DNA from: Paramagnetospirillum caucaseum
GTDB lineage: Bacteria > Pseudomonadota > Alphaproteobacteria > Rhodospirillales > Magnetospirillaceae
Length of the DNA: 34,957 nt
Direction: 5' to 3'
Assembly (NCBI RefSeq): GCF_000342045.1
Contig: NZ_AONQ01000046.1
Span: 1 to 34,957, forward strand
Made by a program: the position numbers and the translations under genes. This document shows positions 26,395 to 30,549 of this stretch, piece by piece. The first letter of the stretch is position 1; the number at the start of each line of letters is the position of its first letter. The notes beneath the pieces are model-generated. The model was not told the origin of the DNA, made no database searches, and saw only the letters and a program-made list of their open reading frames with translations.

Positions 26395-26408
26395 TTGACC
26401 GGAGTCAC
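26395..26408. promoter_or_regulatory. FNR/DNR-like box before the first CRP/FNR gene
   Basis: TTGAC-CGGA-GTCAC matches the TTGAC-N4-GTCAA type palindrome at nine of ten half-site positions. Its centre is only about 22 bases before the start codon, downstream of any likely promoter, so binding would suggest autorepression. The protein encoded next has the ExxSR recognition-helix motif used on such sites. Confidence 0.45.
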
Positions 26409-26423
26409 ACGAGGGAATCCGTA

Positions 26424-27122
26424 ATGACGCAGGCACTCGACCGCGAGGTGCTACTGCAACTGCAATTCGCGCCGCTGTTCACCGGCCTGGCCGAGAAGGA
26501 CGTGCGCGCGCTTCTTGACGGCGCCGAACTGCTGGTTCTGGGGCACGAGCACCTGCTCTACCGCGAGGGCGACCCGGTGGAGCGCTTCTACGTGGTGCTG
26601 GACGGCCACGTCGAATTGTCGCTGGAGGTGGACGGCAAGAAGAGCGTGGTCGAGGTGGCGCGGCGCGCCACCGTGCTGGCCGATGCCGCCATGTTCGGCC
26701 CCGGCCGCTACATCATGACCGCGCGGGTGCTGACCGGGGCGACCCTGCTGGCCATTCCGGCCCCGTCATTCCGTGCCCGCCTGGAAGAGCGCCTGGACAT
26801 CACGCTGCACATGCTGACCACCATGAGCTTCCGCCTGCGCATGCTGGTCCGCCAGATCGCCGAGCTGAAGCTGAAGACCACCGCCCAGCGCCTGGGGTCC
26901 TTCCTGCTGACCATGGTGGAGGCCGAGGACGGCAAGGCCGAGCTGCGCTTTCCCTACGACAAGAAGCTGGTGGCCGACCAGCTGGGCATGAAGCCGGAAA
27001 GCCTGTCCCGCGCGTTGGGCAAGCTGGGGCGCATCGGGGTCGAGTCCCTGCCCGACAATCTGGTGGTCATCGCCGACGTGGCCCGGTTGCGCGAATTCTG
27101 CGCCGAAGAAGAGGTGGGATAA
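26424..27122 (+). CDS. CRP/FNR-family transcriptional regulator 1
   Basis: A 232-residue regulator. The cyclic-nucleotide-binding-type beta barrel spans about residues 15-120 (LLYREGDPVERFYVVLDGHV), followed by the dimerisation helix near 125-150. The C-terminal winged HTH is at about 155-225, with recognition helix MKPESLSRALGKLGRIG; E192, S195 and R196 form the ExxSR pattern that in FNR contacts TTGA half-sites. It has no N-terminal cysteine cluster (only C226), so it is not an oxygen-sensing FNR and is closer to the DNR/NnrR nitric-oxide type by absence of cysteines and context. The start at 26424 has GAGGG at 8 bases. A second regulator follows after 5 bases. Confidence 0.87.
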   Translation: MTQALDREVLLQLQFAPLFTGLAEKDVRALLDGAELLVLGHEHLLYREGDPVERFYVVLDGHVELSLEVDGKKSVVEVARRATVLADAAMFGPGRYIMTARVLTGATLLAIPAPSFRARLEERLDITLHMLTTMSFRLRMLVRQIAELKLKTTAQRLGSFLLTMVEAEDGKAELRFPYDKKLVADQLGMKPESLSRALGKLGRIGVESLPDNLVVIADVARLREFCAEEEVG

Positions 27123-27127
27123 GGCCG

Positions 27128-27826
27128 ATGGGACTGAGCGCCGCCGAACTGGATCTCGTCGCCAAGGCCCCCCTGCTGGCCGGGCTGTCGCCCACCGATC
27201 TCGCCCTGCTGATGGACGGCGCCCATTCCGCCGCCTATCCCGAGACCGAGCTGCTGTTCAGCCAGGGCGACAAGGCCGACCGCTTCTTCATCCTGCTGGA
27301 GGGTCGGGTCAACGTCTTCGCCCTGACCGAGACCGGCGACCAGTCCATCATCGAGGTGTTCGACCCCATCGTGTCGTTCGCCGAGGCCGCCATCTTCTCG
27401 TCGGGCATCTTTCCCCTGAACGCCGAGGTGATGGCCGGGTCGAGGCTGGTGCACGTACCCGCCTCGCTGTTCCTCAAGCGCCTGGCCGACAACCGCTCGC
27501 TGGGTCTGCTGCTGCTGGGCGGCCTGTCCCAATGGCAGTTCCGCCTGGTCCACGAGATCAGCGAGTTGAAGAGCAAGTCGCCGGGCCAGCGCCTCGCCAC
27601 CTTCCTGCTGGCTTTGGCCGCCAAGGCGGGGGCCGACGGTTCGGGCAAGGTGCGCCTGCCGCTGACCAAGGCGGTGCTGGCCAGCCGCATCGGCATCGCG
27701 CCGGAAAGCCTGTCGCGCGCCCTGAACCGCCTCAAGGCCTTCGGCGTCGAGACCCATGGCCGCGAGGTGGAGATCACCGATGTGGAGGCCCTGCGCCGCA
27801 TGGTGCGCGAGGGCGGCGGGGAATAG
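27128..27826 (+). CDS. CRP/FNR-family transcriptional regulator 2
   Basis: A 232-residue paralogue-like regulator, same length as its neighbour. The sensory barrel shows LLFSQGDKADRFFILLEGRV and SIIEVFDPIVSFAEAAIFSS, a helix follows (FRLVHEISELKSKSPGQRLA), then the winged HTH with IGIAPESLSRALNRLKAFG; E193, S196 and R197 again give ExxSR. It has no cysteine at all, excluding an Fe-S sensor; heme-mediated NO sensing as in DNR is plausible but not shown. It lies 5 bases after regulator 1. The two could heterodimerise or form a cascade. The next gene begins 129 bases later behind an FNR-like box. Confidence 0.87.
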   Translation: MGLSAAELDLVAKAPLLAGLSPTDLALLMDGAHSAAYPETELLFSQGDKADRFFILLEGRVNVFALTETGDQSIIEVFDPIVSFAEAAIFSSGIFPLNAEVMAGSRLVHVPASLFLKRLADNRSLGLLLLGGLSQWQFRLVHEISELKSKSPGQRLATFLLALAAKAGADGSGKVRLPLTKAVLASRIGIAPESLSRALNRLKAFGVETHGREVEITDVEALRRMVREGGGE

Positions 27827-27887
27827 CGCCACCCGGACCGGGATGACGGTGCCGCAAATGCCTCCAATCCGCACATAAAAACTCAGC

Positions 27888-27901
27888 TTAACAAACGTCA
27901 A
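27888..27901. promoter_or_regulatory. FNR/DNR-like box before the DUF2249 gene
   Basis: TTAAC-AAAC-GTCAA, nine of ten half-site positions of TTGAC-N4-GTCAA, centred 61 bases before the ATG at 27956. At a class II activation position (-41.5) transcription would start near 27936, but the -10 there (CAGCTT) is weak, as expected for an activator-dependent promoter. It suggests control of the three downstream genes by the regulators encoded just upstream. Confidence 0.5.
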
Positions 27902-27955
27902 GGCGGGACCTTGGTCGTAGGGGCAGCTTGTGGATCACCCTTGCGGAAGGTGTTC

Positions 27956-28540
27956 ATGATGGCCGGTGACGTGGCGAGTGCGGTGATCAACGAGGCTGGA
28001 GGGCCGCCGGAATGGCTGTCCCTGGCGCTCGACGCCTCGCCGCTGGACGTCCGCTCACTGCTGGCCCAGGGCGTCGATCCCTTCGCCACCGTCATGGAAG
28101 CCGCCTCGGGGATCGAATTCGGCGGCTCCCTGGTGATCGACGCGCCCTTCAATCCGTCGCCGCTGCGGCGCATCCTGGCCGGGCGGGGTTTCTCGTCCTA
28201 TGGCCGCAAGCTCAATGAGGGCCATTGGCGGGTATTTTTCCACCTGGATGGCGGCGTGGATTGGGAAAGCGGCGCCGAGGTGGACGTGGGGCCCGAGGGC
28301 GCCATGACCTGGCGCGAGGAGGACGGGCTGCACATCGACGTGCGCAAGCTGACGCCGCCCAATCCCATGCTGGCCATCCTGCGGCTGATCGAACGCGCCG
28401 GTCCGGGCGAGACCGTGGTGGTCCACCACGAGCGCGAACCCCATTTCCTCGCCCCCGAACTGGCTGAGCGCGGCTGGCGCATCGCCCGGGTTTCCAGCGA
28501 GGTGGTCAATGTCAGGCTGTGGCTGGAGCGGATGAGCTGA
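27956..28540 (+). CDS. Tandem DUF2249 (TusA/SirA-like fold) protein
   Basis: A 194-residue cytoplasmic protein with two copies of the DUF2249 domain: about residues 29-96 (LDVRSLLAQGVDPFATVMEA to GHWRVFF) and 127-190 (IDVRKLTPPNPMLAILRLIE to VVNVRLW). DUF2249 is a small alpha/beta fold related to TusA/SirA, often found near denitrification, nitric-oxide-response or haemerythrin genes; its biochemical role is not established. The usual TusA cysteine is missing from both copies. GGAAGG lies 5 bases before the ATG at 27956 (8 before the alternative at 27959). Its stop shares one base with the start of the membrane-protein gene (TGATG). Confidence 0.8.
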   Translation: MMAGDVASAVINEAGGPPEWLSLALDASPLDVRSLLAQGVDPFATVMEAASGIEFGGSLVIDAPFNPSPLRRILAGRGFSSYGRKLNEGHWRVFFHLDGGVDWESGAEVDVGPEGAMTWREEDGLHIDVRKLTPPNPMLAILRLIERAGPGETVVVHHEREPHFLAPELAERGWRIARVSSEVVNVRLWLERMS

Positions 28541-29838
28541 TGTTTCCCGGCAGCTTCATGATGGGGGCGAAGGACCGCCTCCTGCCTCCCTCCGTCCCCT
28601 ACCGCTTCTTCGTGGCGGCGGCGGCCTTCCACCTGCTGGCCTGGGTGCTGCTGCTGGTCGGCAATGACGGCATCCTCGGCTTTGCCGGTGGCCAGGGCAT
28701 GGTTCTGGCGGCGCTGCACCTGATCACGCTGGGCACCCTGGCCATGACCGCCATGGGGGCCGCCATCCAGCTGCTGCCGGTGGCGACGCGGCGCCCTCTC
28801 GGCCCCATCTGGGCCATCAAGCTGATGTTCATCCTCTATGTCCCCGGCGTGGCGCTGTTCGCCGGCGGCCTGGCCCATGCCGTCGCCTGGGTCCAGCATG
28901 CCGGCGCGACCCTCAGCGTCGCCGGTCTGGTCCTGTTCGGCGGCCTGGTGGGGGCCAACCTGCGCAAGGTGGGCGACCTGCCCGGCGTCACCCGCCACGC
29001 CTGGCTGGCGGTGGCCTCGCTGATCGGCCTCGCCGTTCTCGGGCTGCTGCTGGTCATCGACTTCACCAAGGGCTTCCTGCCCGATCACGGGGCGGCGGCC
29101 GCCGCCCACGCGGTGCTGGCCGGCTACGGCTTCATGGGCATGCTGGCGCTGGGCTTCTCCTACGTGCTGATCCCCATGTTCGTGCTGGGCTCGGCGGTTC
29201 CCGACGTGGTGGGCAAGCGGACGGCGCTGCTGTCGGGGCTGGGCCTGGCGGTGGGGGCGGGGGGCGCCCTGGCCGGGTTCGGTCCGGCCGCCGCCTTAGG
29301 GATCCTGCTGGGGCTGGCCGCCACGGCGGTCTATCTGCGCGGCATGCTGGCCAGCCTCAAGACCCGCATGAAGAAGCGCCTGGAGCCGTTCTTCCGCATG
29401 GTGTGGGTCGCCTGGGCGCTGCTGCCGCTCAGCCTGCTGGCCGGGCTGGCCCCGGCGCTGGGCGCGCCGCTCGACCCCTGGGCGGGGCTGTGGGGCTTTC
29501 TGCTGGTGTTCGGCTGGCTCTTGTCCTTCGTCACGGCGATCCTGCAGCGGATCATGCCATTCCTGGCCTCCATGCATTCCTCGGCCCTGGGTGGCAAGCC
29601 GGCGTTGCTGTCGCACCTTGCGCCCAAGCTGCCGGTCGATATTCACCTGGGCTGCCATGTGGCCGCCCTGGTCCTGGTTTCCACCGCCCTGGCCGGCGGC
29701 TGGGTCTGGCCGCTGCGGCTGGGCCTGATCGCCGGTCTGGCCGGTGCCGTCGCGTTCGGCGTCTACACCGTGGAGGTGTTGCGCCGGTATCGGTCCCACA
29801 TGGCCGCCGCCGCCGCTGCGGCCGCTCAACAAGGATAG
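28540..29838 (+). CDS. 12-TM membrane protein, NnrS / heme-copper oxidase subunit I-like
   Basis: A 432-residue protein with about twelve hydrophobic helices. Histidines lie within or at the edge of several: H31, H60 (LAALHLITLGTLAMT), H113, H120, H190 (AAAHAVLAGYGFMGMLALGF), H346, H369 and H373. Repeated helices of the form HLxTLGxxxMTxxGA and HAxLxxxGFMG recall NnrS and the CcoN-like family of heme proteins that respond to nitric oxide. I cannot confirm heme ligands from sequence. It starts at 28540 inside the DUF2249 stop, so it is translationally coupled, and the haemerythrin gene follows after 6 bases. It ends with a hydrophilic Ala-rich tail. Haem, copper or quinone binding in the membrane is an inference. 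Confidence 0.65.
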   Translation: MFPGSFMMGAKDRLLPPSVPYRFFVAAAAFHLLAWVLLLVGNDGILGFAGGQGMVLAALHLITLGTLAMTAMGAAIQLLPVATRRPLGPIWAIKLMFILYVPGVALFAGGLAHAVAWVQHAGATLSVAGLVLFGGLVGANLRKVGDLPGVTRHAWLAVASLIGLAVLGLLLVIDFTKGFLPDHGAAAAAHAVLAGYGFMGMLALGFSYVLIPMFVLGSAVPDVVGKRTALLSGLGLAVGAGGALAGFGPAAALGILLGLAATAVYLRGMLASLKTRMKKRLEPFFRMVWVAWALLPLSLLAGLAPALGAPLDPWAGLWGFLLVFGWLLSFVTAILQRIMPFLASMHSSALGGKPALLSHLAPKLPVDIHLGCHVAALVLVSTALAGGWVWPLRLGLIAGLAGAVAFGVYTVEVLRRYRSHMAAAAAAAAQQG

Positions 29839-29844
29839 CGTTCC

Positions 29845-30336
29845 ATGAATACCCAGACCGGCGCCCTGCTGCATCAGGCCCACATGACCACCATCGAGGC
29901 GTTGCAGTCGCTGGACGAGCTGCTCGGCTCCCACAAGAAGGCGCCGGCCAAGGACGACCTGCTGGGCCGCAAGCTCAAGCAGCTGGCCCGCATCCTCAAG
30001 TCCGAGGTGGAAAACCATTTCGGCTTCGAGGAGAACCACCTGTTCAAGGTGTTCGTCGAGCAGGGCGAGACCGGCATCGTCACCATGCTGACCCACGAGC
30101 ACCGCTCGATCCTGCCGCTGGCGCTGCAGGTAGCTGACTTGGCGGTGGCCGCCGCCGAGTCCGGCTTCACCGACGCCACCTGGACCGAGTTCAAGGATGC
30201 CGGCGCCGAACTGGTCGAGCGCGAGATCTTCCACATCCAGAAGGAAGAGATGGGCCTGCTGGCCGCCATCGCCTCGCTGGTCGATCCCGAGATGGACGAG
30301 GAACTGGCCAACATCTACCGCGCCGAAGTGGGCTGA
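29845..30336 (+). CDS. Hemerythrin-like (HHE domain) protein
   Basis: A 163-residue four-helix-bundle protein. Candidate di-iron ligands lie one set per helix: H10/H13 at the start, H58 with E62/E63 in VENHFGFEENHLF, H84/H86 in MLTHEHRSILPL, and H130 with E134/E135 in FHIQKEEMGLL. This is the HHE-domain pattern; such proteins bind O2 or NO at a di-iron site or repair iron centres. It is cytoplasmic, without signal or membrane segment. It is the last gene behind the two CRP/FNR regulators, DUF2249 and 12-TM protein genes, 6 bases after the latter, which supports a shared gas-response role. Confidence 0.88.
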   Translation: MNTQTGALLHQAHMTTIEALQSLDELLGSHKKAPAKDDLLGRKLKQLARILKSEVENHFGFEENHLFKVFVEQGETGIVTMLTHEHRSILPLALQVADLAVAAAESGFTDATWTEFKDAGAELVEREIFHIQKEEMGLLAAIASLVDPEMDEELANIYRAEVG

Positions 30337-30515: not shown

Positions 30516-30549
30516 AAAGACCCCCCGGCCGGCGCCGGGGGGTCTTTTT
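30516..30549. terminator. Bidirectional rho-independent terminator
   Basis: AAAGACCCCCCGG-CCGGCG-CCGGGGGGTCTTTTT: 13 paired bases with flanking A-run and T-run, so it works on both strands. It ends the haemerythrin operon on the plus strand and the acidic-protein gene on the minus strand. Confidence 0.9.

Follow-up and report, generated by a model that had tools for sequence, protein, structure and literature searches.

We examined a five-gene module in a 34,957-nucleotide stretch of Paramagnetospirillum caucaseum DNA (contig NZ_AONQ01000046.1, forward strand; the whole stretch is hereafter called the window). The core of this module consists of three genes, encoding a double DUF2249 protein, a membrane protein with 12 predicted transmembrane (TM) helices (MEM) and a haemerythrin-like protein (HHE), and the genes of two CRP/FNR regulators (CRP1 and CRP2) lie upstream of it in the window. 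We found that the module is tied to the genes for 4-hydroxybenzoyl-coenzyme A (CoA) reductase (hcr) and benzoyl-CoA reductase (bcr), a link that had been missed in a first-pass annotation made from the sequence alone. Gene conservation, a predicted fold, invariant residues and co-location with hcr and bcr genes form the observed basis on which we propose, tentatively and with somewhat less than even confidence, that the core may be a membrane-plus-cytosol redox unit that shields oxygen-labile enzymes of anaerobic metabolism from O2 and/or nitric oxide (NO), or repairs the iron centres of these enzymes. Such a unit would bear on the question of how oxygen-sensitive aromatic ring reductases survive in facultative anaerobes under O2 or nitrogen oxides.

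The five genes were confirmed on the + strand at 26395-30336, where the following features were recorded:

26395..26408, no strand assigned: CRP/FNR-type dyad TTGACCGGAGTCAC, upstream of CRP1; 9/10 half-site bases
26424..27122, + strand: CRP1, CRP/FNR regulator 1, 232 amino acids; Pfam PF00027 (cNMP_binding) and PF13545 (HTH_Crp_2)
27128..27826, + strand: CRP2, CRP/FNR regulator 2, 232 amino acids; Pfam cNMP_binding and HTH_Crp_2; similar to FtrB and DNR
27888..27901, no strand assigned: CRP/FNR-type dyad TTAACAAACGTCAA, upstream of the three-gene core; 9/10 half-site bases
27956..28540, + strand: double DUF2249 protein, 194 amino acids; Pfam PF10006 in two stretches; no cysteine; TusA-like domains predicted
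28540..29838, + strand: MEM, 12-TM protein; heme-copper-oxidase subunit I fold predicted from a model and CcoN matches
29845..30336, + strand: HHE, haemerythrin-like protein, 163 amino acids; PF01814; YtfE/RIC-type di-iron ligand pattern

Much of the first-pass description stood. The five genes share a strand (gene calls at 26424-30336, all +), the last three are packed as described, with one base common to the DUF2249 stop and the MEM start and a 6-base gap between MEM and HHE, and Pfam bore out the double DUF2249 protein, the haemerythrin and the two CRP/FNR regulators. MEM had been called a 12-TM, histidine-rich protein; our model agrees with the helices, but 12 histidines in 432 residues, three of them invariant, do not make it rich in this residue.

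The three-gene core is conserved

In every one of 30 fetched loci, among them that of the window, MEM is flanked on its own strand by DUF2249 and HHE. We also compiled 80 named loci, the best 80 of 154 relatives from a scan of named genomes, whose titles are alphaproteobacterial except for some named only Proteobacteria and one Stygiobacter. Here the DUF2249 gene lies on MEM's strand in 78 and HHE was found in 78, and all three genes are present in 76. HHE is directly downstream in 62 loci; 71 have it on the same strand within 3 kb, and 6 have it on the opposite strand. It was not found in L067, where the contig stops about 0.3 kb past MEM, or in L074, and DUF2249 was not found in L090 or L107. 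The first-pass annotation had asked for a check of conserved adjacency in other genomes and had counted the lack of a conserved neighbourhood against its own proposal; the neighbourhood is strongly conserved, and this leg of its refutation test therefore fails.

MEM is present in 39 of 60 genomes comprising the host and its relatives (our genome samples include the window's own genome). When 249 genomes sampled from the phylum were searched, more distant MEM homologues (E 2e-42 to 1e-17) were detected in 22 genomes from beyond the class and in three large ones within it. In these three (L138, L139 and L140) MEM adjoins DUF2249; a DUF59-type gene and then a FixG-type gene follow the pair in L138, and an NnrS gene and a HemN-like radical-SAM gene lie near the homologue in L140. 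Seven of the distant loci outside the class were fetched, and a weak HHE match was found nearby in four (E 3e-6 to 7e-4) and a DUF2249 match in none of the seven.

In many loci, the core lies near genes for aromatic ring reductases

We surveyed the flanks of the 80 loci (at most 8 kb, with identity thresholds of 38-45% for hcr and bcr) and found hcrA in 20, bcr genes in 24, either in 32 and both in 12. In the Rhodobacteraceae locus L069, hcrC-hcrA-hcrB stand upstream of the core, with HcrA and HcrB over the cut-offs of TIGR03193-03195 and HcrC just below; past HHE and a GNAT gene, bcrD-A-B-C and dch follow on the other strand, all over cut-off. Coupling to hcr is tight: of the 18 loci where hcrB is on MEM's strand and DUF2249 was found, 13 have no more than 60 bases between the hcrB stop and the DUF2249 start, and the two often overlap.

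Genome content agrees with this arrangement. Among 337 genomes of the class, MEM was found in 13 and BcrB in 13, with both in 8 (Fisher p 4e-10), and when counted by genus (n = 253) MEM was found in 10, BcrB in 11 and both in 6 (p 3e-7), these p values, like those for cNorB and NifH below, being not fully corrected for kinship. In the 60-genome set, MEM is present in 24 of the 25 genomes that bear BcrB. The host genome itself carries three BcrB genes, one cNorB, NifH and four NnrS genes, with no BcrB on the window's contig.

Aromatic-type loci are also adjoined by Rrf2 and GNAT genes. By analogy they recall BadM and BadL of Rhodopseudomonas, in which AadR, a regulator of Crp type, also controls bad genes (PMC6191541).

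Elsewhere in the host genome (contig C29), a BcrB gene (48312-49436) and an NnrS gene (L144; 52049-53290) lie 2.6 kb apart, and similar BcrB-NnrS pairings occur in genomes G013 (contig C206) and G016 (contig C1). NnrS may be tied to ring reductases too.

MEM resembles heme-copper oxidases in predicted fold

MEM of the window passes the cut-off of no Pfam or NCBIfam family. A model built from 18 family sequences gave a mean predicted local distance difference test score (pLDDT) of 89.8 and 12 long helices, and a Foldseek comparison with the PDB returned 24 chains at E ≤0.001, all of them oxidase, oxidase supercomplex or NO reductase entries by title. The best match was an entry for CcoN, subunit I of cbb3 oxidase (8smr; template modelling score by query, TMq, 0.71; 11% identity). 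A profile of 22 diverse members chosen by us (A6) matched CcoN in the PDB as well (3mk7; E 4.6e-7 over 79 profile positions), aligning MEM 42-120 with CcoN 329-410 and placing H60 on H347 and A58 on H345 (numbering counted here). We take CcoN H345 to be the high-spin heme ligand and H347 a ligand of the low-spin heme b. The close-family profile A1, from 18 of the 30 fetched loci, reached no PDB chain at E ≤10.

When MEM was compared in thirds, its third I matched oxidase third III best (E 9e-7, score 44), with reversed controls scoring at most 17. Third II matched oxidase third I weakly (E 0.007), setting H190 against the TM2 histidine, a sub-threshold match. The MEM thirds also match one another (I-II, E 1.8e-8; II-III, 7e-7; I-III, 5e-4), and third I matches the C-terminal third of NnrS (E 4.6e-5). 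Alignments by hhalign against two or three oxidases, or against a single NnrS, were too thin (one run gave a probability of 40). At family level, the oxidase model PF00115 did not match the window's MEM and matched 2 of the 22 diverse members at E ≤0.01, and the NnrS model PF05940 matched neither the window's MEM nor any of the 22 at this threshold; NnrS was reached by 3 of 18 members at E ≤1 (best 1.5e-4), and the homologue of genome G051 scored 24.6 bits against a cut-off of 28. Taken together, profiles and model indicate that MEM is related to the heme-copper-oxidase/NnrS superfamily, a kinship absent from the first-pass annotation.

Other identities for MEM were rejected. It is not a plain NnrS or a plain oxidase, because the protein of the window reaches no Pfam or NCBIfam cut-off and does not have the metal motifs, and a transporter finds no support, as no transporter family was among the matches and the 24 PDB matches were oxidase or NO reductase entries.

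We next considered which histidines MEM has kept. H60, H190 and H373 are invariant in all 80 loci and H369 in 74; across the 22 diverse members, H60 and H190 are the only invariant histidines. In 77 of 80 loci, A, G, S, T or V stands where oxidases have H345 (the other three are not shown). The catalytic set of oxidases, the high-spin heme and CuB histidines, comprises HxH in TM10, HH in TM7 and H in TM6. These HxH/HH/H histidines were invariant in the three oxidases compared, and the HxH and HH metal motifs were absent from the MEM family alignments (18 and 22 members). H60 and H190 would be suited to bind a low-spin bis-histidine heme b, and the simplest reading of the alignments is that MEM holds one such heme and has no oxygen-reducing centre.

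The host genome also carries, on contig C2, two divergent COX1-family genes close together (148397-149545, L120; 153867-155177, L118), one of which scores 47 bits against the Pfam COX1 cut-off of 34.8 and has no NCBIfam match at E ≤1e-5.

HHE and the double DUF2249 protein

The HHE profile A2, from 14 of the 30 fetched loci (A3 drew on 13), matched Escherichia coli YtfE structures in the PDB (E 1e-4). In YtfE, H84 and H204 bind Fe1, H129 and H160 bind Fe2, and E133 and E208 bridge them (PMC9268430). HHE residues H58, E62, H86, H130 and E134 align with YtfE H129, E133, H160, H204 and E208, and H13, which the alignment does not cover, has the spacing of H84; all six (H13, H58, E62, H86, H130, E134) are invariant in 78 of 78 sequences. 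The two YtfE channel glutamates have counterparts by position in HHE: E125 in E54, which is E or D in 76 of 78 sequences, and E159 in E85, which does not vary among the 14 sequences of A2. By alignment, HHE thus keeps the YtfE/RIC di-iron ligand pattern, H-HxxxE-H-HxxxE. The protein scores 12.8 bits on the NCBIfam RIC model (TIGR03652), below its cut-off of 204.7, and Pfam found no ScdA N-terminal domain.

The double DUF2249 protein was modelled as two alpha/beta domains (pLDDT 86; predicted template modelling score, pTM, 0.53). No PDB chain matched this model at E ≤0.001; the best was a thiosulfate-uptake YeeE-YeeD entry (E 2e-3), and TusA 3lvj_C was matched with TMt 0.73, probability 1.00 and E 0.015. 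Nuclease-fold matches of similar E were set aside, their root-mean-square deviation exceeding 11 Å. The Pfam TusA family gave 16.2 bits against a cut-off of 28.6, no NCBIfam family matched, and no DUF1858 domain was found with Pfam. TusA sulfur carriers have a conserved cysteine in a CPxP motif. The window protein has no cysteine, and TusA-style sulfur carriage is therefore unlikely; from its model, it looks like a double TusA-like protein without the cysteine.

Regulators and operator boxes

FtrB is the nearest NCBIfam model for both regulators (CRP1, 137 bits; CRP2, 134 bits), and neither reaches its cut-off of 211. PDB matches of CRP2 were 3h3z, 3fx3 and, third, DNR (3dkw, E 2.5e-25), so that CRP2 combines sequence kinship to DNR with the lack of an Fe-S cysteine set. 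The pair had been described as cysteine-free and without Fe-S cysteines. The second statement was right, the only cysteine in the pair being C226 of CRP1, near the C-terminus; because of this residue, the first is true of CRP2 only.

An FNR/DNR-like palindrome does precede each block, as first noted, both boxes having 9 of 10 matches to TTGAC-N4-GTCAA. The two differ in their conservation. The second box (27888) is kept upstream of DUF2249 in freestanding relatives: a box with at least 8 of 10 matches was found there in 39 of 63 freestanding cores, compared with 37 of 287 control genes and 2 of 15 cores lying close behind another gene, where gene starts come from our own gene caller and the loci, being related, are not independent. 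The pattern TTAACNAACGTCAA, defined on this box together with its relatives, has a single match in the window when up to one mismatch is allowed, and none of 100 shuffles contained it. This 27888-type box is not the same as the NnrR consensus published for alphaproteobacteria (PMC1274295). Upstream of CRP1, a site with at least 8 matches was found in 5 of the 27 loci carrying CRP1, and a site resembling the window's in only the two nearest; the 26395 box is unsupported as a conserved operator.

The regulator pair is present in the upstream flank of 28 of the 80 loci, of which 27 have it on the strand of the core and one, L071, in divergent orientation, and a further pair in the aromatic-type locus L102 was counted apart from these. 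No regulator of the CRP1/CRP2 kind was found at E <1e-30 in the examined stretch of 49 of the 80 loci. Unlike the core itself, the two regulators are confined to a subset of loci.

Downstream of HHE, a G+C-rich hairpin of 14 pairs lies at 30516-30547, between HHE and the next gene, with a terminator-like call on the - strand.

Proposed function and alternative readings

For the redox unit that we tentatively favour, we infer heme binding, electron flow, substrate, complex formation and regulation of the core as follows. MEM would be an oxidase-fold membrane cytochrome that retains a single bis-histidine heme b site but no longer has the reaction centre formed by high-spin heme and CuB. The DUF2249 protein, with its two TusA-like domains, would act as an adaptor, and HHE would be a detached RIC-type di-iron protein serving as the reaction or repair centre, removing O2 and/or NO or repairing iron centres. 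In window-type loci, CRP/FNR regulators may activate the operon under anoxia by way of the TTAAC-N4-GTCAA box. The first-pass annotation had proposed a membrane plus cytosol system for NO or O2 sensing or removal, and the oxidase-like fold of MEM and the RIC-type di-iron pattern of HHE partly support it; what it missed was the oxidase/NnrS kinship and the link to ring reductases.

Several observations weigh against the redox-unit proposal. In the class sample, 5 of the 13 genomes with MEM lack BcrB and 5 of the 13 with BcrB lack MEM; the corresponding figures among the relatives are 15 of 39 and 1 of 25, so neither requires the other. Next to the core, no hcr or bcr gene is present in the host or in most Rhodospirillaceae-type loci. 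For MEM third III, none of the oxidase thirds gave a match (best E 0.08). The oxidase register is ambiguous when only the close-family alignment is used, third I scoring slightly better against oxidase third I (E 0.0013) than against third III (0.0051), and for this reason the shifted order of the MEM arcs is a hypothesis. Finally, cNorB was found in 11 of the 337 genomes (kept at at least 66% identity; five at 31-36% were dropped), of which 4 also have MEM (p 4e-4), and lifestyle may therefore explain part.

That association also speaks for an NO module of denitrifiers, NnrS plus YtfE-like, whose aromatic link would arise because aromatic degraders often denitrify. The three distant MEM homologues adjoining DUF2249 fit such a module, with the DUF59-type gene in L138 and the NnrS and HemN-like genes in L140, as does the DUF2249 family, which we take to be COG4309. 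COG4309 has been predicted in NnrR/NsrR regulons, beside nor genes (PMC1274295), and DUF2249 genes are induced in denitrifying Haloferax mediterranei (PMC11218638). However, the BcrB link is stronger than the NorB link, and 32 of the 80 loci have hcr or bcr genes within the operon or the flank, whereas a host norB query matched 0 of 80 at E ≤1e-15 and 30% identity (flanks at most 8 kb). We regard the NO module as unlikely.

The redox-unit proposal can be cast in a more elaborate form, in which MEM would be a rebuilt heme-copper oxidase with its three arcs of four helices in shifted order, the heme/CuB site for oxygen reduction lost and one bis-histidine heme b left, passing quinol electrons through the TusA-like adaptor to the detached RIC-type protein of the cytosol, the whole forming a split O2/NO reductase that guards both ring reductases; this full scheme seems to us improbable. 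Equally doubtful is a sensor in which MEM and HHE bind gas and DUF2249 relays their state to the CRP/FNR pair, as proposed for Thermus DrpA/DrpB. The regulator pair upstream of 28 of the 80 loci (L102 not counted) would suit it, as would DrpB, which has two DUF2249 domains and affects nitrate-respiration expression (PMC6282519), but the core is kept in the 49 loci without such a regulator. Also improbable is an electron-supply or maturation unit for 4-hydroxybenzoyl-CoA reductase, in which the TusA-like DUF2249 would handle metal or sulfur and HHE donate iron: the tight hcrB coupling (13 of 18 loci), the TusA-like fold and the RIC-type HHE are in its favour, but the window DUF2249 has no cysteine, and hcrA flanks the core in just 20 of 80 loci, with none near the core in the window.

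Protection of nitrogenase was set aside, as the overlap of NifH with MEM is weak: of 321 genomes with any NifH match among the 337, the 10 over cut-off were kept, and 2 of these also have MEM (p 0.05). A comparison with a viral fold library gave nothing at E ≤0.001.

Comparison with known systems

A literature search on DUF2249, hemerythrin and benzoyl-CoA reductase, with many subscription papers outside it, returned no description joining the three genes or tying them to ring reductases. DUF2249 has been linked in print to haemerythrin-like and heme-copper families and to denitrification (PMC11218638, PMC6282519, PMC1274295). In Magnetospirillum gryphiswaldense, whose genome has 26 haemerythrin genes, expression of the HHE-domain gene MSR1_19280 rises 49.9-fold in anoxia, and MSR1_19290, a gene of unknown function, is listed as up together with it (PMC9549626). 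These two genes may correspond to this operon. The module offers three genes by name, two proteins with a predicted metal site each, and hosts amenable to genetics.

Haemerythrin genes of COG3945 occur in betaproteobacterial benzoate clusters, where an O2 store or scavenger has been suggested (PMC6449761). These clusters share with ours a haemerythrin-type protein in an aromatic setting; they belong to Box/Ben pathways, and as described in the available part of that paper they contain no DUF2249-MEM pair. The DUF2249/COG4309 proteins of Thermus (DrpB), Haloferax and NnrR regulons, as far as the available texts describe them, resemble ours in the double DUF2249 of DrpB and in their place in anaerobic gas metabolism, but differ in that no DUF1858 domain was found here, the partner genes are others, and the context here is aromatic. 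HHE shares with YtfE/RIC the putative di-iron ligands and two channel glutamates, but not a detectable ScdA N-terminal domain or a RIC-level model score (12.8 against 204.7).

MEM is like heme-copper oxidoreductase subunit I (CcoN, NorB; PF00115) in its predicted 12-TM fold and in the placing of H60 on what is presumably the low-spin heme b ligand, and unlike it in lacking the HxH/HH motifs and, in the window, a PF00115 match. It approaches NnrS (PF05940) through the match of third I to the NnrS C-terminal third and through sub-cut-off scores in some members, whereas the window's MEM has no NnrS match and separate NnrS genes occur in the same genome. By these comparisons, MEM would represent an unannotated branch near the heme-copper-oxidase/NnrS superfamily.

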